51,861 bases of DNA, taken from an uncultured Eubacteriales bacterium. Its GTDB lineage: Bacteria > Bacillota > Clostridia > Lachnospirales > Lachnospiraceae. The position numbers and the translations under genes are program-made. The stretch lies in assembly GCA_949294665.1 (NCBI GenBank), contig CASFID010000072.1:1-51861 (forward strand). The letters are read 5' to 3'. Numbering within the stretch: the stretch's first letter is position 1; each line of letters opens with the position of its first letter. The notes beneath the pieces are model-generated. The model was not told where the DNA came from, made no database searches, and saw only the letters and a program-made list of their open reading frames with translations. Positions 5,511 through 22,251 of this stretch are shown piece by piece.

Positions 5511-5540
5511 CCGTGCAGAATACAAAATGCAGGACTGCTG

Positions 5541-7931: not shown

Positions 7932-7972
7932 AAGTATACAAAATGTCGTCTATGAAAAGAATGGAGGGAAAA

Positions 7973-8644
7973 ATGATCAATATCAGGAAACATGCCCCTG
8001 CAATCGATGAGAAAGTGCTGGCGAGCCTTATGGCGCAGCCGGCAGCTACAGTCCATGAGGCGATGGGGCGAAGAGGAGCACTGGATCCGGCGATAAAACC
8101 GATCTGCCGCTCTATGAAAACATGCGGACAGGCGCTGACTGTGAGCTGCCATACAGGTGACAATCTGATGCTGATAAAAGCAATCAGTATGGCACGCCCC
8201 GGTGATGTGATCATTGCAGATATGGGGGCGGCGAAAGATTCCGGTCCATTTGGCGAGGTACTGGCAGTGGAATGCGTCACAAAGGGCCTTGCGGGACTGG
8301 TTGTATCATGTGCAGTGAGGGACAGTCTGGAAATCGAAAAACTGGGATTCCCGGTGTTCTCAAACGGCCTGTGTATCAAGGGAACGGCGAAAGCTACATT
8401 AGGTACGATCAATCATCCGATCTGCTGCGGCGGGCAGATTGTATATCCGGGCGACGTTGTCATAGGAGATGCAGACGGAGTCGTCATCGTGCCGCAGTCA
8501 GAGGCGTCCGAGGTCCTGAAACTGGCTGAGGAACGTACGGCAAAGGAAGAAAAGGTTATGAGCAGACTGAGATCAGGAGAATCACTCTTTGATATCTACG
8601 GGTATCAGAAAGTGATGGAGACTCTTAACTGCTCAGAGGAGTAA
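7973..8644 (+). CDS. RraA/HMG-aldolase family protein 1
   Basis: The start was chosen at MINIRKHAP because GGAGGG lies four bases upstream; longer in-frame starts lack a ribosome site. The 223-residue protein has the RraA/dimethylmenaquinone-methyltransferase fold. Recognisable parts are CGQALTVSC, the phosphate/pyruvate-binding stretch FGEVLAVECVTKG, and AVRD with the conserved Arg-Asp. The Asp-Gly-Gly stretch of canonical members is replaced here by ADMGAAK, so the active site is altered. Family enzymes cleave 4-hydroxy-4-methyl-2-oxoglutarate or 4-carboxy-4-hydroxy-2-oxoadipate to pyruvate and/or decarboxylate oxaloacetate. It opens the catabolic island and is separated from the GntR gene by that gene's own promoter. 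Confidence 0.85.
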   Translation: MINIRKHAPAIDEKVLASLMAQPAATVHEAMGRRGALDPAIKPICRSMKTCGQALTVSCHTGDNLMLIKAISMARPGDVIIADMGAAKDSGPFGEVLAVECVTKGLAGLVVSCAVRDSLEIEKLGFPVFSNGLCIKGTAKATLGTINHPICCGGQIVYPGDVVIGDADGVVIVPQSEASEVLKLAEERTAKEEKVMSRLRSGESLFDIYGYQKVMETLNCSEE

Positions 8645-8650
8645 TCTGTC

Positions 8651-8666
8651 CGGGATATATATACCG
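8651..8666. repeat. Near-perfect 16-base palindrome after RraA 1
   Basis: CGGGATATATATACCG is self-complementary except for one symmetrical pair. There is no T-run, so it is a weak terminator at best. It could be an operator for the downstream regulator promoter. Confidence 0.35.
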
Positions 8667-8708
8667 TGATCTGTGTTTGTGACATCACCTTCAATAGATG
8701 TAATTTGC

Positions 8709-8737
8709 TTGGCGTAATGTGAGATTTGTATTATAAT
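8709..8737 (+). promoter_or_regulatory. Sigma-A promoter of the GntR gene
   Basis: TTGGCG and TATAAT are separated by exactly 17 bases. Transcription would begin near 8744, which rules out the longer in-frame ATG at 8726 and supports the regulator start at 8807. Confidence 0.75.
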
Positions 8738-8806
8738 GAAAACAGCTTGAATGTGCGGATTTACAGGCATTACAGCCCGCAGAGAAAAGTATTGGAGGAT
8801 AAAAAT

Positions 8807-9472
8807 ATGGCAAACAAATCGAATGGAGCCATCGGAAAGGCGTATCAGTATTTGCGTGACAGTATCCTTTCCGGGGAGCTCGCATTAGGGGCTCCGATCT
8901 CAGAGATGGAGATCAGCGCCAGGCTGCAGATCAGCCGTTCACCGATCCGTGAAGCGCTGAGACGTATGGAAACAGAGGGACTCGTCTATCGGTATCCCGG
9001 GCGGGGAACTTTTGTGACAAACATTACCCGGAAAGATCTCGAAGAGATTTTTGAACTCCGTATCATGTTTGAGGTTCAGGCGCTTAATACTGCAAGCAGG
9101 TATTTTGAGGAAGAGTTTCTGGATTCGCTGGAGAGAGATTTTATGTATTTGAATCCGGATTCACAGCCACAGCAGTATTATGATGCGAATTCAAGACTTC
9201 ATACGGGGATTATAGCCTATGCAGGCAATAAGAGGATGGAGAAGTTCTATAAACAGCTTCAGACTCAGATAGCAATCGTAACCAGGATTTCTGCACGTGA
9301 TCCTGAGCATTTTGTACTTTCGAGAGAAAAGCACCTGGCTATTGTCCGAGCGCTGAAAGAACGCGACGTAGAGAAAGCGAAGGAGTGCCTTAAAGTCCAT
9401 CTGGAAGAAGTAAGGGACAGGACGATCAAAGGGTATACGCAGCCCGTCCCTCTCAATCGGGAGATACAGTAG
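8807..9472 (+). CDS. GntR-family regulator, FCD (FadR) subfamily
   Basis: The 221-residue protein has a winged helix at about 10-72 (ISRSPIREALRRMETEGLV) and an all-helical FCD ligand-binding domain at about 80-212. FCD His residues that usually bind a metal are present in NSRLHTGI, REKHLAIV and KVHLEEV. The ATG is preceded by TTGGAGG. FCD regulators usually sense the substrate or an organic-acid intermediate of the adjacent pathway and de-repress it. It lies inside the island between RraA 1 and the dehydrogenase, so it is the best candidate regulator of that locus. The likely operator is ATTGTCGACAAT at 7920. Confidence 0.92.
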   Translation: MANKSNGAIGKAYQYLRDSILSGELALGAPISEMEISARLQISRSPIREALRRMETEGLVYRYPGRGTFVTNITRKDLEEIFELRIMFEVQALNTASRYFEEEFLDSLERDFMYLNPDSQPQQYYDANSRLHTGIIAYAGNKRMEKFYKQLQTQIAIVTRISARDPEHFVLSREKHLAIVRALKERDVEKAKECLKVHLEEVRDRTIKGYTQPVPLNREIQ

Positions 9473-9540
9473 AAATAAGCGACAGATCACGGAGAGCAGA
9501 AACCGGTTTTACACTACGACCTGAATAGTGGAGGAAGAGC

Positions 9541-10419
9541 ATGAAGATAGGAATGATCGGTTTAGGCGCTATGGGTATGCCTATAGCAAAATGTTTCTTG
9601 AATGCGGGATATGAACTGCACGCATTCGATGTGGCAGGGAAGGCCAGAGAAGAGATAGAGAAAGCGGGCGCCGCAGTGTACCATGAGGCGGGAGACATCG
9701 GAGAAAAAGCAGACGTTATTGTAAGTTCTCTGCCAAATGCAGCGATCGTGGACTCTGTGATAAGCGAGGTCATGGGGAAGAAAGAACTTAGAGCAGATAC
9801 GTGGATCGATCTGAGCAGTATTGCCCCGGCGTCGGCAGTGGCGTTTGCAAAACGGCTGGAAGAAAAGTCCGTTTCTTATATGGACTGCCCGGTAAGCGGA
9901 GGAGTCCAGGGAGCCGCTCAGGGAACGCTGACAGTTATGGCAGGAGGGCCCGACGGGACTTTTGAGAAGGTGAGGGATATCCTGGAAGTGATCGGGAAAA
10001 AGATATACCACGTAGGCGGCGTTGGAGCAGGCTCAGGGATCAAGATGGTCAATAACTTTATGCTGGGCTGTAATATGGCGGCCGCGGCGGAGGCGCTTGT
10101 GCTGGGAAGCAAACTGGGACTTGATCTGGACACAATGTATGAGATCATCGGCAACAGTTCGGGAAGAAGCTTTATCGTTGAAAACAAAATTCCCAATTTC
10201 ATAAAGAAAAGAAAATTCTCCGGCGGCTTCGCCATAGACCTGCAGTATAAAGATCTGGGACTTGCCATGGAGACTGCCAGGGCATTATCTATGCCGGTAC
10301 ATATGGGAAGCACTGCCGTGCAGATGTTTGAAACGGCCCGCGCAAAAGGATATGGCAGAGATGACATTACGGCCCTGGTCAAAATGGAAGAGGAACTTAT
10401 GGATGTGGAAGTGAAATAA
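9541..10419 (+). CDS. 2-(Hydroxymethyl)glutarate dehydrogenase-like reductase (3-hydroxyisobutyrate dehydrogenase family)
   Basis: This NAD(P)-dependent beta-hydroxyacid dehydrogenase has 292 residues. The Rossmann motif is GLGAMG (7-12), the substrate loop DCPVSGG includes S119, and the catalytic Lys is K168 (GIKMVNN). The stretch around residues 174-190 (LGCNMAAAAEALVLG), and the SSGRS and GGFAIDLQYKDLGLA segments, closely resemble, from memory, the Eubacterium barkeri enzyme that reduces (S)-2-formylglutarate to (S)-2-(hydroxymethyl)glutarate. An enamidase that would make formylglutarate lies downstream in the same locus. Tartronate semialdehyde reductase or 3-hydroxyisobutyrate dehydrogenase remain alternatives. 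The next gene begins 12 bases later. Confidence 0.8.
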   Translation: MKIGMIGLGAMGMPIAKCFLNAGYELHAFDVAGKAREEIEKAGAAVYHEAGDIGEKADVIVSSLPNAAIVDSVISEVMGKKELRADTWIDLSSIAPASAVAFAKRLEEKSVSYMDCPVSGGVQGAAQGTLTVMAGGPDGTFEKVRDILEVIGKKIYHVGGVGAGSGIKMVNNFMLGCNMAAAAEALVLGSKLGLDLDTMYEIIGNSSGRSFIVENKIPNFIKKRKFSGGFAIDLQYKDLGLAMETARALSMPVHMGSTAVQMFETARAKGYGRDDITALVKMEEELMDVEVK

Positions 10420-10431
10420 GGAGGACGAGTC

Positions 10432-11850
10432 ATGACAGTCAGTGAGATCGCGAAAAAGTATGACTTTGATTACGGCCATATGACGCTGGGAGAATGCATC
10501 CGGGTGGCAGAGGAAAGCGCTCTGTCCACAGGAGAAGTTATCCTCACAGAAGCTCAGGAGACTACGGGGAAAAGCCGAAGCGAAGTGATAGAATGTATGG
10601 AAGCTGCTTTCGGGCACAATCTGAAAGCAGCGCAGATCGGGACAGAGAGCGGACGGAGTTTTCTGCTCGGCACGGTCGGACAGGATCTGACAGGTGAGGA
10701 GAAAGTTCCTGTGGCGGGAGATACATTCGTAGATAAGATCGTGGCATATACACTTGCCGCTCAGGTCGGAAATCATACGATAGGCCTGTGCCCATGTGCA
10801 GGGACAGGGGATTCCTGCCCTTACACAGGATTCGTAAAAGCGATGAAAGAAGAATATTCCGATACGGATATCATGGCGAGGACTATGGCGGTCATCCTGA
10901 AGATCGGAGGGATCTTCCGTGTGGGAAAACGCACGACAGGATGCAATATGGAGGGGATCGGAGCCGGTGCGGCTGCCACAGCGGCGGCCTTTGTAGAACT
11001 CTCAGGCGGGACACCGGCTGAGATGGAGAAAGCAGTGGTGCTTGCATTATCTCCGACGATCAGTGTACCGTGTACTCCGCGTGTGCTGGTCCCCGGGCTC
11101 TGCGCGACACATATCGGGGGAGGAGTGCTTATTGCAAGACTCGCAAGTCAGCTCGCGATGCATACTTCCATACCGTCTACAGTGCCGGTGGATGTAATGA
11201 TCGCTATGGCGGCTCAGTGTCATCTTGCCTCGGCCAAATATGTAGTGCCGGTTACCATAGAGTATATGGAGCCATTCTTTAAGCATGACGAACGCGTCGA
11301 TGCATATGTGGACCCGCAGATACTCAAAGACGAGAGGACAAGACAGGAAGAGCTGATCAAAAAGGCGTCCGCAGAGATTCGGGAACTGGCCAAAAAGGCG
11401 AATCCGATCACAGCGCCATTCGGAGAAGCAGTCGTAGGCGGAAGCAGCCAGGGGGTAGGTTCTCCTACAAACTGCGCGAGAATCGCACATTTTCTTGCAA
11501 AAGGGACGGTACATAAAGTAAAGATCGAACTGTATTCCGAGCTGTTCGCACGAAGAGCGATCAATGTGCCGGGCATTCTTATGGCGGCGATCGACGGAGC
11601 CGGGACAAGCGATGCCGTATCTTATAAGGAAAGTCTCGACCGCGCCCGTGAAAGAGGGATCGAGGTAGAGATCATTGAAGTAAAAGAACCATCCGTACAG
11701 CGTATTACAGTAGAAGCGTCAGAGGGAAACGGCATGGCGGATTCACTGAACAGGGGTGGAGCGAGACTGGTCTTAAGAGATGCTTATCCGAGCGTAGAGG
11801 AGGCGCGCAGGATCGCAGAGAAACTGAATATCGTGTTAGTAGATCAATAG
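10432..11850 (+). CDS. Iron-sulfur serine-dehydratase-like enzyme, probable 2-(hydroxymethyl)glutarate dehydratase
   Basis: The 472-residue protein matches the alpha chain of [4Fe-4S] L-serine dehydratases over about 60-360. Candidate cluster cysteines are C171 (TTGCNMEGIGAGAAATAA) and C214 (SVPCTPRVLVPG), with C120, C122 and C129 in a Cys-rich loop. The final 110 residues, from about 361 (KVKIELYSELFARR), form an extra domain I do not recognise; the canonical beta domain is missing. In E. barkeri nicotinate fermentation a serine-dehydratase-like enzyme is assigned to dehydrate 2-(hydroxymethyl)glutarate to 2-methyleneglutarate. The tight coupling to the Hmd-like gene (12 bases) supports that role here. 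True serine deamination is the alternative. Confidence 0.75.
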   Translation: MTVSEIAKKYDFDYGHMTLGECIRVAEESALSTGEVILTEAQETTGKSRSEVIECMEAAFGHNLKAAQIGTESGRSFLLGTVGQDLTGEEKVPVAGDTFVDKIVAYTLAAQVGNHTIGLCPCAGTGDSCPYTGFVKAMKEEYSDTDIMARTMAVILKIGGIFRVGKRTTGCNMEGIGAGAAATAAAFVELSGGTPAEMEKAVVLALSPTISVPCTPRVLVPGLCATHIGGGVLIARLASQLAMHTSIPSTVPVDVMIAMAAQCHLASAKYVVPVTIEYMEPFFKHDERVDAYVDPQILKDERTRQEELIKKASAEIRELAKKANPITAPFGEAVVGGSSQGVGSPTNCARIAHFLAKGTVHKVKIELYSELFARRAINVPGILMAAIDGAGTSDAVSYKESLDRARERGIEVEIIEVKEPSVQRITVEASEGNGMADSLNRGGARLVLRDAYPSVEEARRIAEKLNIVLVDQ

Positions 11851-11911
11851 GCATAGTTTCTGTGAGAAGAACGGATGCCTATATCAAAAAAGAATCGACA
11901 ATAAATCGACA
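11847..11911. promoter_or_regulatory. Hairpin and operator-like half-sites before the LarA-like gene
   Basis: ATAGGCAT (11847-11854, spanning the dehydratase stop) pairs with ATGCCTAT (11875-11882), with an inner TTCT/AGAA stem. No T-run follows. Then TCGACA occurs at 11895 and 11906, an 11-base direct repeat. Each resembles half of the ATTGTCGACAAT palindrome at 7920. This may be an internal regulatory point of the island. Confidence 0.4.
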
Positions 11912-11920
11912 CATTGAATA

Positions 11921-13201
11921 ATGAGTGAAAAGATTATGAGCACAGTGGAAGATATCGTCAGGCATACGGAAATACCTCAGATGACATCAGTCAGGCAGTA
12001 TTTTGATCACAAACACGTATCCGATCTCAGAGAAAAGGTAACGTCAGAGTTTGAGAAAAGGCGGATAAAAGAGAAGATAAGACCGGATATGAGCGTTGCG
12101 GTGACAGCGGGGAGCAGAGGGATCAAAAATATCGGAACCATTCTCCGCACAGTGATCCACCTGCTGAAAGAAGCAGGAGCCCGGCCGTTTATCGTGCCGG
12201 CTATGGGAAGCCACGGCGGAGCTACGGCAGAAGGACAAAAAGAGATGCTGCAGGGGCTCGGGATCACGGAAGAGAGTATGGGATGCCCGATAAGGTCCTC
12301 GATGAAAGTTGTTGAGATAGGAACGACCGGGAAAGGGAAAAAGGTATTTCTGGATCAATATGCGGCAAAAGCAGATGGGATTGCGGTTGTCAATCGGATA
12401 AAGGCGCACACGTCATTTACCGGAAAGTATGAAAGCGGTCTTATGAAGATGATGGCGGTCGGGCTGGGAAAACAGAAAGGAGCTCAGGCATGTCATTGTG
12501 AAGGCCACGGAAAGCTTGCGGAACATGTGGAAGAATATGGAAAAGCAGTCTTAAGAAACGCAAATATCATCTTTGGCGCCGCGATCCTCGAAAATGCCTA
12601 TGACGAAACGAGAGACATACAGATCTTGTATCCGGATGAAATCCCCGGCAGAGAGCCCGAACTGCTGCTCGAGGCCAAGAAACATATGCCAGGGATCTGG
12701 CTGACAGACATTGACGTGCTGATTGTGGACAGGATCGGAAAGGATATAAGCGGACTGGGGATGGATCCGCATGTGACAGGCGCCTTCGTCAGCAAATACG
12801 CGCACGGTCCGAAACGTCCGTCGTATGTCGCAGCCCTGGATCTGACCGATAAAACCCACGGAAATGCCACAGGGATCGGAGTGGCAGATATTACGACGAA
12901 ACGTCTTGTCGGGAAAATAGACTATGAGGCGACCTGTGCGAATGTGATGACTGCAGTTATGCCGAGGGCGGCCAGAATACCGCTGACTGCGGCGAATCAG
13001 AGGACGGCCATACAGGCCGCGATACAGGCGAGCGGATGTACGGACGCGTCGAAAATAAGAATGGTCAGAATACAGGATACACTCCATCTGGAGAAGATAC
13101 AGATATCATCCGCGATGCTGCGGGAAGCAGCCGAACACCCGCGGATGGAGATCATGGATGCAGCCCCTCTGCTGTTTGATAAGAATGGAAATCTGTTTTA
13201 G
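11921..13201 (+). CDS. LarA-like (DUF2088) nickel-pincer isomerase homologue
   Basis: The 426-residue protein has the lactate-racemase N-terminal (DUF2088) fold. Conserved stretches are AVTAGSRGIKN, PAMGSHGGATAEGQ, NRIKAHTSF and ESGLMKMMAVGLGK. Candidate nickel-pincer ligands and catalytic bases are H98, H163, K176 (or K184) and H192, matching the order of H108, H174, K184 and H200 in Lactobacillus LarA. Family members racemise or epimerise 2-hydroxyacids. The cofactor-making LarB, LarC and LarE are not in this window. The ribosome site at ATG 11921 is poor; ATG 11936 is an alternative. It probably acts on a hydroxyacid intermediate of the island. Confidence 0.8.
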   Translation: MSEKIMSTVEDIVRHTEIPQMTSVRQYFDHKHVSDLREKVTSEFEKRRIKEKIRPDMSVAVTAGSRGIKNIGTILRTVIHLLKEAGARPFIVPAMGSHGGATAEGQKEMLQGLGITEESMGCPIRSSMKVVEIGTTGKGKKVFLDQYAAKADGIAVVNRIKAHTSFTGKYESGLMKMMAVGLGKQKGAQACHCEGHGKLAEHVEEYGKAVLRNANIIFGAAILENAYDETRDIQILYPDEIPGREPELLLEAKKHMPGIWLTDIDVLIVDRIGKDISGLGMDPHVTGAFVSKYAHGPKRPSYVAALDLTDKTHGNATGIGVADITTKRLVGKIDYEATCANVMTAVMPRAARIPLTAANQRTAIQAAIQASGCTDASKIRMVRIQDTLHLEKIQISSAMLREAAEHPRMEIMDAAPLLFDKNGNLF

Positions 13202-13290
13202 CAGATACATCGGGAAAGGAGGTTAAGGAGAACAAAAGACGGGGTAAAATCATTTATCTAAAGAATATGAACTATTAAAGGAGGAGAATT

Positions 13291-14616
13291 ATGGGTAACA
13301 ATCAGGAAGTACAAGACGTCAATGTGACGGCCGAAACTGTTGATGAAGAATTTGCCACCAGCAGCGTGCCGAAGTCGGCGAGACGTTCTGCGTGGAAACT
13401 GCTGATGGTCTGGATGGGCTATGTATTTGTCGTTACTACGATGCAGGTAGGCGGAAATATGGCTATGGGACTCGATTTTACAGAGTTTATTACTGCCGCG
13501 CTTCTGGCAGGAGCAATGCTGTCAGTGATCGCATGTTTTATGGCGTATATCTCCTGTAAATCAGGTCTTACTTTTACGCTGCTCTGTAAATACTCATTCG
13601 GAAAGGCCGGCATATGGATTCCTGTCTTCCTTGTCATCATTACGTGTGTTTCGTGGTATTCTATCGACGCATGGCTGATCGGGGAGACGGTAAATACTCT
13701 GTTCCCGTCCATTCCGATCATTCCTGTCGTGATCGTAGCAGGACTGGGCATTATCCTTACAGGATACGTCGGGATCCGGGCAATGGAAATCTTAAGTACG
13801 ATCGCGGTGCCGCTCATCATTATTTTCGGTATCGTTTCTATTGTATTTTCGATCGACAGTATCGGTGTTGAGAATCTCACAAGCATGGAGCCGGCAACGG
13901 GAGCAGCCATTACTTTTACATATGCTCTTGCGCTTGGAGTAGGTTCTTTCAGCCACGGCGCTGTTGCGAATACCGCCGAAGTCATGAGATATTCCAAGAC
14001 GCCGAAACAGGCGGTAGTGATCATGATCATCGCGATGATGATAGGAAATACATTTATGCTCGTATTCGGCGGCGTCGGTATGCTCTCCACAGGAGAATAT
14101 GACATGGCTCTGATCTTGAAAGCGCAGAACCTTCTCGCTCCGGCATTCCTGGTCGTTCTTCTGAACATCTGGTCTACGGCGCAGGGGCTGGTGTATACAT
14201 CGACAAACGCCATCGTGGGCGCTCTGAAAGTAAAGAGAATCTATGTCAGTATCGGCATCGCTATCGTAGGACTTACAATGTCCCTGCTGCATTTTATCGA
14301 CTACTTTGGAACATGGATCGACTTAAACGCAAAATTTATTCCGCCGTTTGCAGGAATCATTATCGCGGATTATTTCTTCATATACAAACGGAAATTCCCG
14401 GATATCAGGAAATTCGACAAGATCATGCCTACGGCAAACTGGTCAGGACTTATTACATGGCTTTTCGGTTCTATCCTTGCCGGATTCGGACTGCTTGAGT
14501 TCGGACTTCCGACGATCAACTACATCGTTGTATGTGTGATCGTAAAGGTCCTCCTCTCCAAATATGTGTTCAAACAGGAGGAAAAGAGCATCAAGGAATG
14601 TGAGGCGGTACAGTAG
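13291..14616 (+). CDS. NCS1-family (CodB-like) permease
   Basis: This 441-residue transporter has about twelve membrane segments and a hydrophilic 30-residue N-terminus. The early WMGYVFVVTTMQVGGN and the central SWYSIDAWLIGE segments are typical of NCS1 carriers of cytosine, purine, hydantoin or related heterocycles (Na+ or H+ symport). AAAGGAGGAGAA precedes the ATG. Its place among ring-opening and ring-derived acid enzymes makes it the likely importer of the pathway substrate and points to a nucleobase- or pyridone-like cyclic amide. The actual substrate is not visible. Confidence 0.88.
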   Translation: MGNNQEVQDVNVTAETVDEEFATSSVPKSARRSAWKLLMVWMGYVFVVTTMQVGGNMAMGLDFTEFITAALLAGAMLSVIACFMAYISCKSGLTFTLLCKYSFGKAGIWIPVFLVIITCVSWYSIDAWLIGETVNTLFPSIPIIPVVIVAGLGIILTGYVGIRAMEILSTIAVPLIIIFGIVSIVFSIDSIGVENLTSMEPATGAAITFTYALALGVGSFSHGAVANTAEVMRYSKTPKQAVVIMIIAMMIGNTFMLVFGGVGMLSTGEYDMALILKAQNLLAPAFLVVLLNIWSTAQGLVYTSTNAIVGALKVKRIYVSIGIAIVGLTMSLLHFIDYFGTWIDLNAKFIPPFAGIIIADYFFIYKRKFPDIRKFDKIMPTANWSGLITWLFGSILAGFGLLEFGLPTINYIVVCVIVKVLLSKYVFKQEEKSIKECEAVQ

Positions 14617-14652
14617 CAGCGGTCTTGACATTGACGAAAAAGAGGTGGACAT

Positions 14653-15714
14653 ATGGCGAAAAAAAGTAAGATGAAAGCTGTTGTTTATCAAAAAGAAGGA
14701 GTATTGGCACTGGAGGAACGTCCGGTGCCTGTACTGCAGAAAAGCACAGACGCTATTGTAAAAGTGTCTATGGCGGCAATATGCTCAAGTGATCTTCATA
14801 TCAAACGGGGAGCAGTGCCCAGGGCAAAACCCGGGACGATCCTTGGTCATGAGATCATCGGTGTGATAGATGAGATCGGGAGTGATGTAAAAGGACTGAA
14901 AAAAGGAGACAGAGTGACGGTAAACTGCGAGACGTTCTGCGGAGAATGCTATTTCTGCAAAAGAGAGTATGTAAATAACTGCTCTGCACCGGGTGGTGGA
15001 TGGACTCTCGGCTGTTCTGCGGACGGCGGACAGGCCGAATATGTGCGTGTCCCGTTTGCGGGAAACTGTCTGAACAAGATCCCCGACAGTGTTTCGGATG
15101 ATGCGGCGCTCCTTGTAGGAGACGTGTTATCTACGGGGTACTGGGCGGCTCAGATATCCGAGCTGCATCCGGCGGAGACGATCGCGATCATCGGAGCCGG
15201 ACCTACGGGACTGAGTACGGCGATGTGTACGAAGCTGTATTCTCCTGCATGTACGGTTATGATCGATATCTCGCAGGAAAGACTGGAATTTGCCAGAGAA
15301 CATGGTCTTGCAGACGTCATCGTCAATCCGAAGACAGAAGATGCAGAAAAGATCATAAAAGATCTGACCGATGGACGGGGAGCAGACAGAGTATTTGAAG
15401 TGGCAGGTGGAAGAGATACTTTTGAAATGGCCTGGAAGATCGCTCGCTGCAGCGGGATCGTGTGTATCGTGGCGATGTATGAGGAGCCGCAGACACTGCC
15501 GCTTCATGAGATGTACGGCAAGAATCTTGTATTCAAGACCGGCGGCGTGCATGCAAGCTGCTGCGGTGAGATCCTAAAGCTCATCGAGGGCGGTAAGATA
15601 GATGTGCGTCCGCTTATCACTCACAGATTCTCATTGGAAGACGTAATGGAGGGATACCGTATCTTTGAAGCCCAGGAGGACGGCGTTATCAAAGTGGCGG
15701 TCATTCCGGACTGA
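14653..15714 (+). CDS. Zinc-dependent alcohol dehydrogenase (MDR family)
   Basis: The 353-residue medium-chain dehydrogenase has catalytic-zinc residues C44 and H66-E67 (GTILGHEIIG) and a complete structural-zinc site C96/C99/C102/C110 (FCGECYFCKREYVNNC). An NAD(P)-binding GAGPTGLST motif lies near residue 180. It follows the permease by 36 bases and precedes the DUF1185 pair by 23, so it is in the island operon. It would oxidise an alcohol or reduce an aldehyde such as a semialdehyde intermediate. Threonine- or sorbitol-dehydrogenase-like names are possible, but the substrate is unknown. Confidence 0.9.
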   Translation: MAKKSKMKAVVYQKEGVLALEERPVPVLQKSTDAIVKVSMAAICSSDLHIKRGAVPRAKPGTILGHEIIGVIDEIGSDVKGLKKGDRVTVNCETFCGECYFCKREYVNNCSAPGGGWTLGCSADGGQAEYVRVPFAGNCLNKIPDSVSDDAALLVGDVLSTGYWAAQISELHPAETIAIIGAGPTGLSTAMCTKLYSPACTVMIDISQERLEFAREHGLADVIVNPKTEDAEKIIKDLTDGRGADRVFEVAGGRDTFEMAWKIARCSGIVCIVAMYEEPQTLPLHEMYGKNLVFKTGGVHASCCGEILKLIEGGKIDVRPLITHRFSLEDVMEGYRIFEAQEDGVIKVAVIPD

Positions 15715-15737
15715 AAAGGAGACAGGAGGTTATAAAT

Positions 15738-16328
15738 ATGGCGAAAGAACCCGATATCCGCAAGCTGGTTACATTTCGTGAGATCATACGCAGCGAAGGC
15801 GGCAGAGAACTTGGGCATCCTTTGATAAAGTGCGCGGTTGCCGCTGTTATCAGGAATCCGTTTGCGGGAAAGTATGAAGAAGATCTGACATTACTGATGG
15901 AGTACGGGGAATACCTGGGAGATTACCTCACAAGGACAGCGGTCCGCGCGATGGGAGTCGAGGCCTCTGACGTAGAGACATTTGGAAAAGCATGCATCGT
16001 AGGGCTGGACGGCGAACATGAACATGCAGCCGCGCTGATGCATCCGCGACTCGGGGCACCCATGAGAAAGGTTCTTGGAGCAGGGAAAGCAGTGATCCCG
16101 TCCGCTAAGAAGATCGCTGCGGCCGGGGCAACGCTGGACGTGCCGCTGCTCTATAAAGACGCGATGATGGTCCGTTCCCATTATGATGCCATCACGATCC
16201 GTATCCCGGATGCGCCTCATCCTGACGAAGTGGTTGTGGCGACGGCGTTTTCCAATGGAGGAAGGCCACATGCGAGGATCGGCGGTTTATCTGTAGAAGA
16301 GATCCACAACTGGAACGGCATGGATTAG
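15738..16328 (+). CDS. DUF1185 / amino acid synthesis (AA_synth) family protein A
   Basis: The 196-residue protein belongs to the DUF1185 family, labelled amino acid synthesis but without established chemistry. Conserved features visible in both copies here are E-x-GRELxHPLxKCA near residues 20-32, FAGxxxEDL, GEYLGxxL, GLxGExEHxxAL and the C-terminal RPxARxGGL. It is followed by a homologue 16 bases later. The two copies differ throughout, so this is an old duplication and they may form a heteromer. The island context suggests a catabolic step on a ring-derived acid or amide. Confidence 0.8.
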   Translation: MAKEPDIRKLVTFREIIRSEGGRELGHPLIKCAVAAVIRNPFAGKYEEDLTLLMEYGEYLGDYLTRTAVRAMGVEASDVETFGKACIVGLDGEHEHAAALMHPRLGAPMRKVLGAGKAVIPSAKKIAAAGATLDVPLLYKDAMMVRSHYDAITIRIPDAPHPDEVVVATAFSNGGRPHARIGGLSVEEIHNWNGMD

Positions 16329-16344
16329 AAAGGAGGGATCGATC

Positions 16345-16932
16345 ATGCAAAGGCCATACATACGGAAAGAAGTTGTTATCATTGACGAGATACGAAAAGA
16401 AATCGGCAGAGAGCTGGAGCATCCGCTCAGGAAATGCGCGTCTGCCGCAATCGTAGAAAATGTGTTTGCAGGAACTCACACAGAAGATCTCTCCCTGTAT
16501 AAAGAATACGGAGAATACCTTGGAAAGCTTCTGATCGAGAATGCTCTTGACGCACTGGATGTAAAACCGGCCGATATACAGAGCTACGGGAAAGCCGCCG
16601 TCACAGGACTGGCGGGTGAGCAGGAACACGGCTCCGCACTGCTGCATATGGGATTTGACGCTCCGGTGCGCGAGATATTAGGAGATACACTCTCCATCAT
16701 CCCGTCGTCGGAAAAATCGGCTCCTGCGGGGCATTCGATCGATGTTCCGCTGCACAGCAAACGCGCGGTCAAGGTGCGGACACATTATGACGCGATGGAG
16801 GTATATGTAGACGATGCGCCGCGACCGGATGAGATCATGATCATATTATGCGTGACTACCGGGCCAAGACCTTTCGCTCGTGTCGGCGGGCTTCTGCTGG
16901 ATCAGGTAAAGAACATGGATGGCATCAGCTAA
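16345..16932 (+). CDS. DUF1185 / amino acid synthesis (AA_synth) family protein B
   Basis: The 195-residue homologue of the preceding gene has the same motif order: REL-x-HPLRKCA, FAGTHTEDL, GEYLG, GLAGEQEHGSALL, RPFARVGGLL. AAAGGAGGG precedes the ATG, and the enamidase gene begins 14 bases after its stop. Co-retention of both copies suggests complementary roles. The family has no secure function; nothing in the sequence identifies a cofactor. Confidence 0.8.
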   Translation: MQRPYIRKEVVIIDEIRKEIGRELEHPLRKCASAAIVENVFAGTHTEDLSLYKEYGEYLGKLLIENALDALDVKPADIQSYGKAAVTGLAGEQEHGSALLHMGFDAPVREILGDTLSIIPSSEKSAPAGHSIDVPLHSKRAVKVRTHYDAMEVYVDDAPRPDEIMIILCVTTGPRPFARVGGLLLDQVKNMDGIS

Positions 16933-16946
16933 AGGAGGCGTTATAT

Positions 16947-18110
16947 ATGGAACTTATTGTCACAAATATCGGGAAACTGGTCAGTGGAGATATTACACAG
17001 CCGCTGCTCGATGCGGACACGATATATATCAAAGACGGATTATTCGAGGAGATCGGGAATCAAGAGATACTCAAGAGACATCCGGGTGCGCGCGTGCTCG
17101 ATGTGAACGGAGTCACAGTGGCCCCGGGCCTGATTGATTCACACTGCCATCCCTGCATCGGTGATTACACATTCCGGCAGAAAGCAGCCGATTTTCTGGA
17201 AAGCGAGATCCATGGAGGCTGTACGACGCTGATCTCAGCCGGGGAACCACACTTCCCGGGCAGACCTACGGATGCAGCGGGAGCAAAAGCACAGGCGATA
17301 TTTGTCTCTAAGACTTTCCGCAACAAGTCTCCTCTGGGCGCCAAAGTACACGGAGGGGCTCTCATCCTGGAAAAGGGAATGACAGAAAAAGATTTTGAAG
17401 AAATGGAGCGGGAAGGAGTATGGCTTGTCGGCGAGATCGGTCTGGGAAGCGTGAAATCTCCGGAAGAAGCCGCGCCTCTCGTGGAGATCGCAAAACGCCA
17501 TGGATTTAAAGTCCACATGCACACAGGAGGCACGTCTATCCCGGGAAGTTCCACTGTGACAGCAGACGACGTGATACGGACGAATCCTACAGTGGCATCC
17601 CACTGTAACGGCGGACCGACAGCAGTGTCGGTCAAAGAGGTAGACCGTATCATCAGCGAAACGGATGTGGCGGTAGAGATCGTTCAGTGCGGGAACTACA
17701 GGGTGGCAAAGCACATTTATGAGAAAGTGCTTGAACTGGGAAAAGAAGACAGGGTGATTTTCGGAAACGACGCCCCTTCTGGCACCGGTTTCGTCTCTCT
17801 CGGAATCCTGCGGAACGTATGCTATGCCAGCCTGTGCGGCATCGCACCGGAGAAAGCGATCGCCATGGCGAGCGGAAATACGGCGCGTACATTCGGGCTG
17901 AACACAGGTATGATCGCTCCCGGAAGAGAAGCGGACATGATCTGTCTGGACGCACCGATCGGTTCGGTAGGAGAGGACGCCCTCGCGGCGATCGATGCAG
18001 GCGATATCCCGGCCGTCACATATATTATCGTGGACGGAGAAGTGATCGTGGAGAAGAGCCGCAACACACCGCCGGGAAATCATATGCCGGAATTCAGGGA
18101 CGAAAGATAA
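16947..18110 (+). CDS. Enamidase (amidohydrolase superfamily)
   Basis: The start was chosen at MELIVTNIGKLVSGD, seven bases after AAAGGAGG. The 387-residue metal-dependent amidohydrolase shows H66/H68 (DSHCHP), E163 (VGEIGLG, in place of the carboxylated Lys), H190/H192 (VHMHTGG), H219 (ASHCNGG) and D275 (FGNDAPSGTG). Long stretches match my memory of Eubacterium barkeri enamidase, a binuclear Fe-Zn enzyme that hydrolyses 1,4,5,6-tetrahydro-6-oxonicotinate to ammonia and 2-formylglutarate. It is the key reason to read the locus as heterocycle fermentation. A related cyclic enamide could be the true substrate. Confidence 0.85.
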   Translation: MELIVTNIGKLVSGDITQPLLDADTIYIKDGLFEEIGNQEILKRHPGARVLDVNGVTVAPGLIDSHCHPCIGDYTFRQKAADFLESEIHGGCTTLISAGEPHFPGRPTDAAGAKAQAIFVSKTFRNKSPLGAKVHGGALILEKGMTEKDFEEMEREGVWLVGEIGLGSVKSPEEAAPLVEIAKRHGFKVHMHTGGTSIPGSSTVTADDVIRTNPTVASHCNGGPTAVSVKEVDRIISETDVAVEIVQCGNYRVAKHIYEKVLELGKEDRVIFGNDAPSGTGFVSLGILRNVCYASLCGIAPEKAIAMASGNTARTFGLNTGMIAPGREADMICLDAPIGSVGEDALAAIDAGDIPAVTYIIVDGEVIVEKSRNTPPGNHMPEFRDER

Positions 18111-18158
18111 CAGAAAGAAATACAACAGCACAATGAAATATGAAAGGAGTAATTTGCT

Positions 18159-18791
18159 ATGGCTGGTTTTAGCGAGCATTATACAAATCTGAAAAAGGAA
18201 CTTAATCTGAGGAAAACAGCGATCCTGATCGTAGATATGATGAATGACTTTTGTAAGCCGGGCGGGAAAATGGTGCTTGACGACGGATATATTGTCGTAG
18301 AGCCCATCCAGCGTCTGGTAGAGGAAGGGAGAAAACATGGGATCCCGATCGTATGGATCTGTCAGAAATACCGTAAGGACAAGTACGACAAAGTGACGGA
18401 GAAACGTGAAGGAACATGCTATGAAGGAACATGGGGCGGCGAGCAGATTGAAGATCTCCCGATCCTGCCGGAAGATTATGTCGTAAACAAGCGCCGTTAC
18501 AGCGGATTTTTCCAGACAGATCTGGATCTTACTCTGAGAGATATGGGATGTGAAAAAGTAATTGTAGGCGGGGTAGTGACGAATATTTGCGTACGCGGAA
18601 CGGTTGCGGATGCATTCCAGCTTGACTATGACGTATTTGTTCCGAAAGATGCTGTCCGTGCAACGAGCGACCGCGAACAGGAGTCACAGTTATGGGATTT
18701 TGAGACTCACTTCGCCACGGTGACGACAGTCGACGAACTGATCGAGGCGATGGCTGACCTGAAGCCGGAGGACGCCTGCAGGATACACTAG
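18159..18791 (+). CDS. Isochorismatase-like cysteine amidohydrolase
   Basis: The 210-residue protein has the isochorismatase-fold triad D26 (LIVDMMNDF), K111 (VVNKRRYSGF) and C144 (GGVVTNICVRG). The D-x-H metal site of nicotinamidase is absent, so PncA activity is unlikely. Relatives hydrolyse maleamate, carbamoylsarcosine, biuret or ureidoacrylate. In this locus it could release ammonia from an open-chain amide, or hydrolyse a substrate amide before ring opening; both are inferences. It lies 48 bases after the enamidase gene in the same orientation. Confidence 0.88.
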   Translation: MAGFSEHYTNLKKELNLRKTAILIVDMMNDFCKPGGKMVLDDGYIVVEPIQRLVEEGRKHGIPIVWICQKYRKDKYDKVTEKREGTCYEGTWGGEQIEDLPILPEDYVVNKRRYSGFFQTDLDLTLRDMGCEKVIVGGVVTNICVRGTVADAFQLDYDVFVPKDAVRATSDREQESQLWDFETHFATVTTVDELIEAMADLKPEDACRIH

Positions 18792-18828
18792 AAAGAAATA
18801 CATATCAGACAGATCTATCAAGCGATGA

Positions 18829-18860
18829 GTACCGGGCGGCTTCCTGTAAGTCCCCGGTAC
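18829..18860 (+). repeat. Intergenic hairpin before RraA 2
   Basis: GTACCGGG (18829-18836) pairs perfectly with CCCGGTAC (18853-18860) across a 16-base loop. No T-run follows; the next gene's AGGAGG begins about 8 bases later. It may stabilise or process the operon mRNA. Confidence 0.45.
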
Positions 18861-18876
18861 CGGACAGGAGGTATAT

Positions 18877-19542
18877 ATGGGAGTTCTGACACAGGAATTA
18901 AGAGAAAGACTTGAAAAATTATCTACAACGAATGTTTCCGATGCGCTGGACGCACTTGGACTGAAAGGATCGACATATGGCGTGAACAAAATGTACGAAG
19001 GCTGCCGGAAGATCATCGGAGAAGCCGTCACAATGAAAGTAGTCGCTGCGGGACTTACAAAGTCCACCACACATATGGGCGTAAACGCGATCGAGGCGGC
19101 GAAAGAAGGCGATGTGATCGTAATCGACAACGGCGGACGCATTGATGCGAATTGCTGGGGCGGTGTTTTAAGTACGGGAGCAAAATATAAAGGAGTATCC
19201 GGAGTCGTTATCGACGGTGCGTGCCGCGATCTGGATGAGTGTATGGAACTTGATTTCCCGGTCTATGCCCGCGCAACGATCTGTGCGACGGCACGCGGCA
19301 GAGTCATGGAAGAAGCGACCAATGTTATGGTTTCCTTCCACGGCGTTCAGGTCCGCCCGGGCGATATTGTTATGGCAGATATTACGGGCGTAGTCTTTAT
19401 CCCTCAGGAACGTGCGCAGGACGTTGTCTCAAAGGCAGAGACGCTCCATGAAAAAGAGGAGGCGATGTGCAGAGACATCAGATCTGGTATGTCGATGAAG
19501 GAAGTGGACACAAAATATAATTATGAAAATATGCTGAAATAG
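18877..19542 (+). CDS. RraA/HMG-aldolase family protein 2 (canonical)
   Basis: The 221-residue protein keeps the canonical family residues: VIDNGGRIDANCWGG, GVVIDGACRD (Arg-Asp) and the C-terminal GVxxxPQE stretch. This is the most aldolase-like of the three homologues in the locus. Family enzymes split 4-hydroxy-4-methyl-2-oxoglutarate-type acids to pyruvate with a divalent metal and also decarboxylate oxaloacetate. A strong AGGAGG precedes the ATG, and the third homologue starts 20 bases after the stop. It may provide the carbon-carbon cleavage that ends the pathway. A regulator-of-RNase role is unlikely in this context. Confidence 0.88.
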   Translation: MGVLTQELRERLEKLSTTNVSDALDALGLKGSTYGVNKMYEGCRKIIGEAVTMKVVAAGLTKSTTHMGVNAIEAAKEGDVIVIDNGGRIDANCWGGVLSTGAKYKGVSGVVIDGACRDLDECMELDFPVYARATICATARGRVMEEATNVMVSFHGVQVRPGDIVMADITGVVFIPQERAQDVVSKAETLHEKEEAMCRDIRSGMSMKEVDTKYNYENMLK

Positions 19543-19562
19543 ATGCAGGGAGGGAGGAGCTT

Positions 19563-20231
19563 ATGAATATTCCGAAATTAGCGCCGGAGATAATAGAGGC
19601 TTATAAGTCTCTGGATTCCACAAGCATCTCTGATGCGATGGACCGTCTTGGGATCCCGTCCGGTCTGTATCATCTCAAACCGGTCACTCCCGGCAAAGTG
19701 ATGTGCGGACAGGCATTTACGGTCAGATATGTTCCGTGCGGCGAAGTGAAAGGCACAGTTGGCGATTTCCTGGACGACGTGGAACCGGGACAGGTCTGCG
19801 TGCTGGATAACGGCGGCAGAGATTACTGTACCGTATGGGGCGATATTATGGCTCTGTATGCGTCCATGCGGAAGATAGCCGGAACGGTCATCTATGGAGT
19901 GTGCCGTGATGTGAAGGATGTAAGAAAGATAGGATATCCGATCTTTTCTCTGGGACATTATATGGTTACAGGCAAAGACCGGGTAGAAGTAGCCGAGGTC
20001 AATGGTCCGGTGACGATAGCAGATATAAAGGTGTGTCCCGGCGACCTGATCTTCGGGGACGATACGGGCGCTCTGTGCGTACCCTACGACAGAGTGGAAG
20101 AAGTCCTGCAAATAGCGAAAGAAATAGAGGATAAGGAAGAGCGCATCCGACAGGCTCTGCATGAGGGAGTCTCGCTCCGTGAGGCCAGAGCAAAAACAGG
20201 ATATCATCATTTGCAGACAAGACAAGAATAA
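19563..20231 (+). CDS. RraA/HMG-aldolase family protein 3
   Basis: The 222-residue homologue has VLDNGGRDYCTVWGD, TVIYGVCRD and GDDTGALCVP. The GGVL of copy 2 is replaced by GDIM and the ID before G is replaced by IY, so substrate or activity probably differs. It lies directly after copy 2 and 18 bases before a GTG-started 2-hydroxyacid dehydrogenase. Three divergent members in one locus argue for distinct steps or a hetero-oligomer rather than dosage. Confidence 0.87.
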   Translation: MNIPKLAPEIIEAYKSLDSTSISDAMDRLGIPSGLYHLKPVTPGKVMCGQAFTVRYVPCGEVKGTVGDFLDDVEPGQVCVLDNGGRDYCTVWGDIMALYASMRKIAGTVIYGVCRDVKDVRKIGYPIFSLGHYMVTGKDRVEVAEVNGPVTIADIKVCPGDLIFGDDTGALCVPYDRVEEVLQIAKEIEDKEERIRQALHEGVSLREARAKTGYHHLQTRQE

Positions 20232-20249
20232 GAGAATGGAGGGGCAGAT

Positions 20250-21191
20250 GTGGGTATAAATGTATTATATCTGGACAAAATGAATGAACCAATGGAAAGG
20301 ATGATCCTGGAGATGTGTCCGCCGGATGTAGATCTCAGATTCCTTCAGCCGAACATAGGGAAGAAAGGGGCTCTGGAAGATGCGGAATGTCTGTTTGACA
20401 CAACATTCCAGGTCACCAGGGAGATCATCGATCAGACTCCGAACCTGAAACTCATACAGAGGACGGGCGTGGGTGTGGACATGGTAGATACAGCTTATGC
20501 AAAAGAGAAAAATATCCCTGTATCGATCTGCCGGGGGTTCAATTCGTCCTCGGTGGCGGAACTGGCGATACTTGATATGCTGGCGCTTTACCGCCACATC
20601 ATCGATCTTACCGTACTGAGCAGAAAAAAGGAATGGCATACGTGGACATTCCGGCATGAGAGTTTTGAACTGCTGGGCAAAACGATCGGCATTATCGGAG
20701 GCGGCGCGATCGGCCGCGAAGTGATGAAAAGGGTAAAAGCATTTGGCGCGGAGGTGATCTACAGCGACGTTGTGAGAATGGACCGCTCTCTTGAGGACCA
20801 GCTTGGCTGCCGGTATGTTGATTTTGAGGAACTGATCCGGACATCAGATATCATCAGTATCCATGCGCCGCTTCTTGAAAGTACCAGGGGAATGATAGGA
20901 GCAGAACAATTCAGGATGATGAAAGACACTGCTCTCCTGATCAATACGGCCCGCGGTCAGATCGTGGATGCAGACGCACTCATAGATGCACTCAGGACAG
21001 GCAAAATATGGGGAGCGGCAGTGGACGCTTTCGAGCCCGAAGATCCGATGTTCGGCGTGGAACTGGATAATCTGATCGCCACTCCGCATGTGGGAGCCGC
21101 GACTTACGACAACTATTACCGTGTCTATAAGTTCGGACTGGAAAACGCTCAGCGGATCGCCGCAGGAAAAGAACCTCTGGGCTGTCTGTGA
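20250..21191 (+). CDS. D-isomer-specific 2-hydroxyacid dehydrogenase
   Basis: The start is GTG at 20250 with GGAGGGG five bases upstream. The 313-residue protein has the two-lobed formate/glycerate dehydrogenase fold. The NAD-binding motif is IGGGAIGREV near 150, catalytic Arg lies in INTARGQIVDA, and the catalytic His in TPHVGAAT. It would interconvert a 2-oxo and a 2-hydroxy acid with NAD(H), which could regenerate NAD+ during fermentation or supply the substrate for the LarA-like isomerase. It is the last enzyme gene before a separately promoted transporter. Confidence 0.92.
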   Translation: MGINVLYLDKMNEPMERMILEMCPPDVDLRFLQPNIGKKGALEDAECLFDTTFQVTREIIDQTPNLKLIQRTGVGVDMVDTAYAKEKNIPVSICRGFNSSSVAELAILDMLALYRHIIDLTVLSRKKEWHTWTFRHESFELLGKTIGIIGGGAIGREVMKRVKAFGAEVIYSDVVRMDRSLEDQLGCRYVDFEELIRTSDIISIHAPLLESTRGMIGAEQFRMMKDTALLINTARGQIVDADALIDALRTGKIWGAAVDAFEPEDPMFGVELDNLIATPHVGAATYDNYYRVYKFGLENAQRIAAGKEPLGCL

Positions 21192-21202
21192 TCATGGAAC
21201 AG

Positions 21203-21277
21203 AGCGGGATATTATAAAGCGGCTTGACATTTCGGGGGAAAAAGGCCAGAATAGAAAAAGTGCGATAATATCCCGCT
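21203..21277 (+). promoter_or_regulatory. Promoter framed by a 13-base inverted repeat
   Basis: AGCGGGATATTAT (21203-21215) and its exact complement (21265-21277) flank TTGACA (21224-21229) and CAGAAT (21247-21252), spaced 17 bases. The right arm lies at about +15. The arrangement suits a looping repressor, or a large hairpin that also ends the upstream operon. It drives the AEC transporter. Confidence 0.55.
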
Positions 21278-21306
21278 TTGCGCGGCATAAGGATGGAGAA
21301 TGATAT

Positions 21307-22251
21307 ATGGATAACCTGATCTTTAGTCTGAACGCTACTGTTCCGGTGTTTCTGCTGATGATCCTCGGTCTGGTATTTAAAAAGATCGGGTGGATAGACG
21401 ATGCTTTTGCATCAAAGATGAATCAGTTCGTTTATATGGGACCGCTGCCGGTCCTTCTCTTTGAGGACCTGGCAACGGTCGATTTTACGCAGGTATGGGA
21501 TATCAGTTTCCTGCTGTTCTGTTTTGGATCGACATTTGTCTGCATCCTGATCTCTGCCGCAGCATCCGGCCTGCTCAGAGACCGCGGTCAGCGGGGGGAG
21601 TTCATACAGGCGTCCTACCGCAGCAGCGCCGCTCTGCTGGGCATTGCATTTATCCAGAATATATATGGCAATGCAGGTCTTGCTCCGCTGATGATCATAG
21701 GGTGTGTTCCTCTGTATAACATCATGGCAGTCGTCATACTCACTTTTTTCCATCCGGAACAGAAGAAAATAGGGAAAGAAATGTGGGCGGCAACTTTAAA
21801 AGGTGTTGTCACGAATCCTACCGTACTCGGCATTGCCGCCGGGTTCTGCTGGTCTGCACTTAAGCTCCCCATGCCGTCTATCCTGGAGAAAACAGTGTCC
21901 GATATCGGCGCTGTGGCGACGCCGCTCGGACTGATGGCGCTGGGAGCAAGCTTTGATCTGAAAAAGGCATTTGAGAAGATCAGGCCTGCCATTGCCGCCT
22001 CTGGAATGAAGCTTATCCTGTTTGCAGCTATGTTCCTTCCTGTAGCCGTCTGGATGGGCTTTCGCAGGGAAGAACTGGTGGCCATCCTTGTCATGCTCAG
22101 TTCGGCCACGACTGTGAGCTGTTATGTAATGGCGCGGAATATGGGGTATGACGGCGTTCTGACGTCAAGTGTCGTCATGCTCACGACTATGCTCAGCGCG
22201 TTTACGATGACGGGATGGCTGTACATATTGAGGAGCATGGGGATGGTGTAA
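21307..22251 (+). CDS. AEC-family transporter
   Basis: The 314-residue membrane protein with about ten hydrophobic segments belongs to the auxin-efflux-carrier family. Bacterial members move mono- and dicarboxylates such as malate, malonate or lactate. Its N-terminal half has the typical GLVFKKIGWID start and a charged cytoplasmic loop near 150-165. GGATGGAGAA precedes the ATG. Placed at the end of the island with its own promoter, it is a good candidate to export the acid end-product or import an acid co-substrate. It is convergent with the acetyltransferase. Confidence 0.88.
   Translation: MDNLIFSLNATVPVFLLMILGLVFKKIGWIDDAFASKMNQFVYMGPLPVLLFEDLATVDFTQVWDISFLLFCFGSTFVCILISAAASGLLRDRGQRGEFIQASYRSSAALLGIAFIQNIYGNAGLAPLMIIGCVPLYNIMAVVILTFFHPEQKKIGKEMWAATLKGVVTNPTVLGIAAGFCWSALKLPMPSILEKTVSDIGAVATPLGLMALGASFDLKKAFEKIRPAIAASGMKLILFAAMFLPVAVWMGFRREELVAILVMLSSATTVSCYVMARNMGYDGVLTSSVVMLTTMLSAFTMTGWLYILRSMGMV

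Follow-up and report, generated by a model that had tools for sequence, protein, structure and literature searches.

What does a bacterium do with the central enzymes of nicotinate fermentation when they stand among genes of quite different families? This question was raised by contig C72, a stretch of 51,861 bases (hereafter the window) from the 3.59-Mb, 75-contig assembly G000, which is 95.9% complete and 5.05% contaminated. Open reading frames (ORFs) were listed and assigned to families with Pfam and NCBIfam. Fifteen consecutive plus-strand genes, here called the island, span 7943–22251. They encode an enamidase (Ena), a dehydrogenase (Hgd) and an iron–sulfur (FeS) dehydratase (Hmd), together with a LarA-type isomerase (LarA22), a D-2-hydroxyacid dehydrogenase (D2HDH), three RraA proteins and others. 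The island is a real, conserved variant of the enamidase route, and a new one.

The nicotinate route of Eubacterium barkeri, in which 1,4,5,6-tetrahydro-6-oxonicotinate (THON) is opened, was used for comparison. It comprises nicotinate dehydrogenase (NdhF, NdhS, NdhL and NdhM), 6-hydroxynicotinate reductase (Hnr), the Ena–Hgd–Hmd trio, methyleneglutarate mutase (Mgm), methylitaconate isomerase (Mii) and the dimethylmalate enzymes (DmdA, DmdB and Dml). A preliminary description of the window had placed the trio in a 15-gene locus; genes and families were as it named them, and their order recurs in relatives. It had called the product of 9541 an Hmd-like dehydrogenase, which was a mix-up of names. 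In the E. barkeri nomenclature, Hgd denotes the dehydrogenase, and the FeS dehydratase is named Hmd; 9541 is Hgd-like and 10432 is Hmd-like.

The enamidase trio and its conserved island

The Ena gene (16947–18110, +) lies in an ORF that opens at 16848, within the preceding gene; its likely start is 16947 (MELIVTN...). Ena matched 2VUN, the solved E. barkeri enamidase, with 533 bits and 62% identity. It retains H66, H68, E163, H192, H219 and D275 (numbering from 16947), which we take to be metal ligands from the amidohydrolase family. A tree was built with 46 rows (loci to L050, longer than 330 aa, plus the window and 2VUN) selected from 85 rows plus 2VUN. The enamidases of five islands formed one clade (100/100), whose sister group held those of E. 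barkeri, Acetobacterium bakii and three further rows (99/97).

Hgd (9541–10419, +) is a 2-(hydroxymethyl)glutarate dehydrogenase-like member of the HIBADH family. Its best PDB match was 3CKY, a 2-hydroxymethylglutarate dehydrogenase, with 267 bits, and the next match scored 176. S119, G120, G121, K168 and N171 were invariant in 20 rows (L030 and L059 left out). Two fixed differences from homologues were counted; the set also contains more distant relatives, and their presence makes the number smaller. Branching among the canonical Hgd sequences was poorly resolved (21 of 23 rows in the tree).

Hmd (10432–11850, +) is an FeS 2-(hydroxymethyl)glutarate dehydratase-like protein with an SDH_alpha domain. 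It scored 34 bits against the serine-dehydratase model, far below the cut-off of 243, and was 52–58% identical to its counterpart in ten canonical loci (Desulfosporosinus, Acetobacterium, Sporomusa, Moorella and others). C122, C129, C171, C214 and C224 were invariant in 16 rows, 15 of them different, and nine fixed differences separated the island proteins from their homologues. The island members formed a clade (100/99); the Moorella row was a long branch whose placement is unsure. By these alignments and trees, the trio is orthologous to the nicotinate-fermentation enzymes. The outcome that the preliminary description had named as damaging, a trio lying outside the Ena, Hgd and Hmd clades, did not come true. 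The upper half of the route very probably consists of Ena–Hgd–Hmd chemistry on a glutarate skeleton.

The distribution of the island was analyzed in related genomes, a search that the preliminary description had proposed. The enamidase was present at E ≤ 1e-40 in three of 146 related genomes, all of a single genus: that of the window, G013 (identity 90%) and G055 (86%). G055 contains all 15 island genes in the same order, and G013 has the same order up to a contig end that cuts the final gene. The recurrence of this order indicated that the island is not a chance arrangement. At E ≤ 1e-60, an enamidase was found in just one of 392 genomes sampled from the order, that of the window.

GTDB contigs were scanned with a three-sequence enamidase alignment, and the best 80 of 175 relatives were taken (L007–L086); gene presence in these loci was called with one set of thresholds of our own choice. 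The island was found in three of the best 80 loci: L007 (NZ_LT635549.1, Clostridium sp. Marseille-P3244, counted as one genome with contig C3 of G055), L008 (Anaerotruncus massiliensis) and L009 (a Clostridiaceae metagenome-assembled genome, MAG). The five island genomes are thus G000, G013, G055, G531 (Anaerotruncus) and G532 (the Clostridiaceae MAG). L008 and its upstream stretch L175 hold 13 of the 15 genes: RraA1, GntR, Hgd, Hmd, LarA22, ADH, DUF1185a, DUF1185b, Ena, ICH, RraA2, RraA3 and D2HDH. Neither NCS1 nor AEC was found in the Anaerotruncus locus, and an SDR gene and a sugar-type ABC importer lie inside its island. L009 retains a core of ten genes: RraA1, Hgd, Hmd, LarA22, DUF1185a, DUF1185b, Ena, RraA2, RraA3 and D2HDH. 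No ICH, AEC or sugar importer was seen in that locus, whose contig ends shortly past D2HDH. In all five genomes, Hgd and Hmd are placed between RraA1 and LarA22. The island is rare yet present in more than one genus.

Beside the island of G055 (L005, 4945–12054) lie an SDR-like gene, a sugar-type ABC importer, an ADH gene (65%), an RraA3 copy (77%) and, on the opposite strand, a GntR gene (54%).

Canonical enzymes and what the island carries instead

The preliminary description had listed nicotinate dehydrogenase, 6-hydroxynicotinate reductase and methyleneglutarate mutase as missing, and genome searches bore this out. The canonical locus of A. bakii (L012) contained, by Pfam, NdhF, NdhS, NdhL, NdhM, a B12-binding protein (Mgm), a PrpF-type isomerase, MutL, a PEP-mutase/ICL-type lyase, aconitase-type subunits, Ena, DUF1185, Hgd and Hmd. 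A 490-aa FeS protein with two 4Fe-4S motifs adjoins Ena in L011 and other loci, and we took it as the probable Hnr by its position. The Hnr query matched at full length in four of four control genomes (63–100%). No full-length Hnr was found in the five island genomes or in G533, a genome with an enamidase outside any such island; in all six, only the ferredoxin-like part (query residues 1–100) matched. The Mgm query matched at full length in three of three controls (71–100%); no full-length Mgm was found in the five island genomes or in G533, with at most a match to the B12 domain, and another Mgm query gave the same outcome for three of these genomes. NdhM was detected in three of three controls (63–100%) in ORFs of 333–342 aa. 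No split NdhM was found in the five island genomes, where identity did not exceed 40% along the length, or 46% along a part of it, and every match lay in an ORF of 762–948 aa; G533 gave no match. NdhL matches of 31–37% in three island genomes came from a search that had no positive control, as did the failure to find MutL in any of three island genomes. Mii, DmdA, DmdB and Dml were not called in the fetched island loci; no genome-wide search was made for them.

The loci themselves gave the same division. Hmd was present in 13 of the best 80 loci, ten non-island and three island. Hnr or Mgm was present in all ten non-island loci, none of which had LarA22 or an island-type RraA. All three island loci had LarA22 and an island-type RraA and no Hnr or Mgm, a mutual exclusion. 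A complete E. barkeri set adjoining the window, which the preliminary description had allowed for, did not turn up. E. barkeri-type clusters (L011–L018, L026 and L050) share Ena, DUF1185 and orthologues of Hgd or Hmd with the island, and likewise an anaerobic Bacillota host. Unlike them, the island carries LarA22, D2HDH and three RraA proteins.

Three further loci were recorded. L010 of G533 (1060–12665) contains an ADH gene (62%), a LIV-type ABC transporter, a CN-hydrolase, a DASS transporter, Ena, DUF1185 and Hgd, and may represent a third variant in a genome with neither full-length Hnr nor Mgm. Contigs C36 and C65 of G000 resemble each other in one stretch apiece, where two amidohydrolases accompany an XDH-type ORF; these stretches may be duplicated clusters for purine breakdown or may stem from contamination of the assembly. 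In Sporomusa ovata (L014, 2049–6923), genes for an MTTB-type methyltransferase, an SSF symporter, a corrinoid-binding protein and a pterin-binding enzyme lie 5' of the nicotinate cluster, and perhaps demethylate trigonelline (N-methylnicotinate) to feed the nicotinate pathway.

LarA22 (11921–13201, +) scored 526 bits against NF052515, nickel-pincer isomerase group 22, with a cut-off of 400, which makes the earlier label of a LarA-like isomerase more precise. H98, H163, K176 and H192 were invariant among the aligned group-22 sequences; from their spacing we take them to be the two catalytic histidines of LarA, the lysine of the nickel-pincer nucleotide (NPN) and the nickel histidine. No PDB match was obtained by sequence, with a single sequence or a profile. 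A structural model (mean predicted local distance difference test score 84) was LarA-like in 19 of 19 listed matches at E ≤ 0.001, the best at 6e-11. Among them is 4nar, which bears a structural-genomics title and which we take to be a LarA homologue. LarA22 shares with the LarA superfamily the fold, both catalytic histidines and the position of the NPN lysine, and by model and sequence it should racemise an alpha-hydroxyacid. Island LarA22 members were 55–73% identical to that of the window; other aligned group-22 members were 42–49% identical. The NPN cofactor genes LarC and LarE were found in four of the five island genomes. Of 391 genomes of the class, 25 had a group-22 gene, counting that of the window. 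A 2-hydroxyacid dehydrogenase was found near it in eight of 31 stretches from other genomes (L127, L130, L132, L136, L138, L139, L149 and L152), and L139 also carries an RraA-like gene. Other neighbours appear, in our reading of lengths and sequence starts, to be TRAP- or Tct-like and DapA- or KDPG-like. The main-text passages searched in the nickel-pincer papers contain neither the term 'group 22' nor a substrate for it. D2HDH (20250–21191, +, GTG start) had R235 and H280 invariant in 15 rows.

The first of the three RraA proteins, RraA1 (7943–8644, +), is of the HMG/CHA-type pyruvate aldolase family, where HMG stands for 4-hydroxy-4-methyl-2-oxoglutarate. Its ORF opens at 7943; 7973, the start given in the preliminary description, follows a GGAGG and is the more probable one. 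RraA1 scored 216 bits against NF006731 (cut-off 179), and its best PDB match was 3NOJ. In HMG/CHA aldolase, Arg123 stabilises the enolate, and Asp124 and Glu199 bind the metal (PMC5065237). RraA1, RraA2 (18877–19542, +) and RraA3 (19563–20231, +) retain R123, D124 and E199 of 3NOJ in all aligned rows, the Anaerotruncus RraA1 lying outside the alignment. RraA1 retains eight of 11 checked 3NOJ positions: besides these three, R40, G101, G144, K147 and R195. It differs at H75, Y99 and D102. The RraA3 of the window retains seven of the 11 and RraA2 four. Conservation within the island is highest in RraA2, with 94 and 96% identity inside the genus and 92 and 81% beyond it. In contrast to the HMG/CHA aldolase system, no dioxygenase is among the island families.

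DUF1185a (15738–16328, +) and a diverged second copy, DUF1185b (16345–16932, +), precede Ena, and the pair was found in all five islands. The island proteins scored above the Pfam cut-off for PF06684 and have the fold of 3BYQ (53 of 81 rows in the alignment). DUF1185 was present in 76 of the best 80 enamidase loci from many phyla, including canonical nicotinate clusters and loci without Hgd, Hmd and Hnr. DUF1185 is generally linked in function to the enamidase, and, contrary to the preliminary description, it is not a substitute part peculiar to the island.

A candidate route and its rivals

A route can be written that uses all ten core genes, and the core in L009 is exactly its gene set. On this reading the island is a catabolic operon for an N-heterocycle that is already partly reduced. 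Its substrate would be a THON-type lactam with a hydroxyl on the carbon beside the lactam carbonyl. We infer an alpha-hydroxyl on the skeleton because a LarA-type racemase and a D-2-hydroxyacid dehydrogenase are present; a hydroxyl in this position would become an alpha-hydroxyacid on ring opening, as LarA and D2HDH need. Compounds related to this substrate do occur, since the fungus A. nidulans forms hydroxylated piperidinones from nicotinate (PMC9304392). The lactam would be imported by NCS1, or in Anaerotruncus perhaps by the sugar-type ABC importer. It may enter ready-made through NCS1 or be the work of ADH, SDR and ICH.

Ena would then open the lactam. A bifunctional enamidase that opens and deaminates THON to 2-formylglutarate is described in PMC9304392. 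DUF1185, a proposed partner of Ena, may help enamine hydrolysis, freeing ammonia and giving 4-hydroxy-2-formylglutarate. Hgd would reduce the aldehyde with NADH, and Hmd would remove water to form 4-hydroxy-2-methyleneglutarate. After LarA22 had set the configuration of the alpha-hydroxyl, D2HDH would oxidise it to 4-methylene-2-oxoglutarate and return the NADH, the cofactors being assumed. Addition of water would give HMG, on which the aldolase similar to RraA1 is known to act; HMG would then be split into two pyruvates. Another RraA-like protein is reported to be a dehydratase/decarboxylase acting on a 2-keto-3-deoxy acid (PMC8563752), and because of this activity water removal or addition on pyruvoyl compounds may lie within the reach of RraA proteins. 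The three RraA proteins of the island may divide the hydration and the cleavage among them. The computed formulas balance: C6H7NO4 + 2 H2O → 2 pyruvate + NH3, neutral in NADH. The exit through HMG, with its predicted cleavage to two pyruvates, is possible, though we would not bet on it at even odds.

We put the probability of the whole mechanism, from a hydroxylated lactam to two pyruvates with no ring reductase and no B12, at roughly 40%. Several points weigh against it. RraA1 scored 190 against the stricter aldolase model TIGR02798, whose cut-off is 304.5. Within the genus, no island protein is less conserved than LarA22, and D2HDH was not called in 23 of the 31 group-22 stretches from other genomes. 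G055 has neither LarC nor LarE, despite a LarA22 with all four catalytic and cofactor positions; this may reflect either a loss or the use of scavenged cofactor. Finally, ADH, ICH and DUF1185b have no step in the proposed route.

If the substrate were THON without the hydroxyl, Ena, Hgd and Hmd would lead to 2-methyleneglutarate, an aldolase-based exit would follow, and LarA22 and D2HDH would act later or on a by-product. These three enzymes are near the canonical ones and may take identical substrates. However, 2-methyleneglutarate offers no alpha-hydroxyl to LarA or D2HDH and, on chemical grounds, no path to a pyruvate aldolase unless a hydroxyl is added, and the ten-gene core retains both LarA22 and D2HDH. 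We consider this unlikely. The preliminary description had proposed a pre-reduced cyclic amide and an aldolase exit. Those parts fit the RraA residues, whereas plain 2-methyleneglutarate as branch point is not supported, as LarA and D2HDH imply an alpha-hydroxyl. A similarly low chance was given to two co-regulated modules, in which Ena–Hgd–Hmd would act on one compound and LarA22–D2HDH–RraA on an unrelated sugar acid or hydroxyacid of the same nutrient, for instance a heterocycle glycoside or nucleoside. LarA22 and D2HDH do occur together away from an enamidase, in the eight group-22 stretches and with an RraA-like gene in L139; the SDR/importer/ADH/RraA3-copy module beside the G055 island, and the SDR gene and importer within the Anaerotruncus island, also fit two modules. 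The interleaved order of RraA1, Hgd, Hmd and LarA22 in all five genomes and the lack of a sugar importer in the L009 locus argue against them.

If the ring were of another kind, for example a dihydropyrimidine or hydantoin, it would be opened by Ena, decarbamoylated by ICH as by RutB, deaminated by DUF1185 in the place of RutC, and passed to Hgd as a semialdehyde reductase. The Rut pyrimidine pathway shares the order of amide hydrolysis, enamine deamination and aldehyde reduction, whereas the ring-opening enzyme of the island is unrelated to that of Rut and DUF1185 stands where Rut has a Rid protein. The closest resemblance of NCS1 is to cytosine permease, ICH aligns in part with RutB, and an Anaerolineales MAG likewise has ICH, DUF1185 and Ena next to one another. 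Yet the L009 locus has no ICH, Ena shares 62% identity with the THON enzyme, and Hgd and Hmd of the glutarate type are retained, and we regard another ring as improbable. Ordinary nicotinate fermentation with its remaining genes elsewhere, or lost in assembly, had in its favour that G000 is a 75-contig draft, that XDH-family proteins occur in it, and that Mii, DmdAB and Dml were sought in loci and not genome-wide. It was rejected on the negative searches for Hnr, Mgm and split NdhM: no full-length Hnr or Mgm was found in any of the five island genomes, including G055 (3 contigs, 98%), with controls at 63–100%, and the XDH-family matches were 31–46% identical and lay in long ORFs, not split subunits. 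Its chance is very small.

Control elements, surroundings and meaning of the island

An operator-like palindrome, ATTGTCGACAAT (7920–7931, no strand assigned), lies downstream of a promoter-like TTGACG-17-TAACAT (7877–7905). Its core, TTGTCGACAA, stands between the promoter-like -10 and RraA1 and is exact in the window, G013 and G055, with one mismatch in Anaerotruncus and two, read by eye, in the Clostridiaceae MAG. A related, partial site precedes LarA22 in the window, G013 and G055, and a weak 35-nt repeat pair (D2, at 7911 and 11882) had pointed to the palindrome. Neither palindrome nor promoter was above chance by count in the window, and the operator reading follows from position and conservation, not from count. 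The palindrome looks like a putative operator, presumably of the FadR/GntR type, and this is consistent with the second gene of the operon, a GntR/FCD regulator (8726–9472, +; Pfam GntR and FCD) found in four of the five islands and a likely controller. Promoter-like sites in the window (13) did not exceed those in shuffled sequences (16.8), and terminator-like sites (15) were slightly above them (10.9, sd 3.6). For riboswitch control, no Rfam match at the gathering score was obtained in the window.

The remaining island genes encode transporters and accessory enzymes. The NCS1 permease (13291–14616, +; Pfam Transp_cyt_pur), a proposed heterocycle importer, scored 281 bits against the cytosine-permease model, below its cut-off of 326. 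ADH (14653–15714, +; ADH_N/ADH_zinc_N) is a zinc medium-chain dehydrogenase, in which C44, H66, E67, C96, C99, C102 and C110 were invariant in 18 rows. ICH (18159–18791, +) is an isochorismatase-fold amidase by Pfam, with D26, K111 and C144 invariant in eight rows. In the Anaerolineales MAG (L046, 8714–11146), DUF1185, ICH (46%) and Ena stand side by side in a locus with neither Hgd nor Hmd. An AEC-family transporter (21307–22251, +; PF03547) ends the island.

On the 5' side, a two-component system, ABC genes and, beyond them, pyruvate kinase flank the island; on the 3' side, a hexapeptide acetyltransferase and a GH31 enzyme are followed by RecJ, RelA/SpoT and aminoacyl-tRNA synthetases. In the window, ABC-2 transporter genes and the two-component system (3152–7799) separate pyruvate kinase from the island, which it directly adjoins in G013. 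With a view to an origin of the island as mobile or foreign DNA, base composition and flanks were compared: the flanking genes of G000 and G055 are not the same, and GC content was flat (0.47–0.53) over 48,000 profiled bases of the window. A second D-2-hydroxyacid dehydrogenase, an FGGY kinase and two aldo-keto reductases stand in a row at 46201–51032 and form a separate sugar-type cluster.

The gene combination was not described in the literature searched, which lay chiefly outside subscription papers. The available part of a riboflavin-degradation preprint (PMC12934955) mentions no enamidase, RraA, LarA or isochorismatase. Tentatively, and with some doubt, we suggest that the island may encode an undescribed anaerobic pathway from a hydroxylated oxo-tetrahydronicotinate to two pyruvates via 4-methylene-2-oxoglutarate and HMG; DUF1185 would then be a novel type of enamine deaminase that serves the enamidases of many bacteria and of some archaea. 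From this proposal follow a class of substrates that can be tested on both LarA group 22 and DUF1185, and expected products of the breakdown of hydroxylated pyridine-carboxylates. The hosts of the island presumably include human gut isolates. If the proposed route is true, they would possess a second anaerobic way out of the enamidase route, one that needs neither B12 nor the ring reductase and in which a nickel racemase joins the enzymes of nicotinate fermentation to an aldolase of aromatic degradation.

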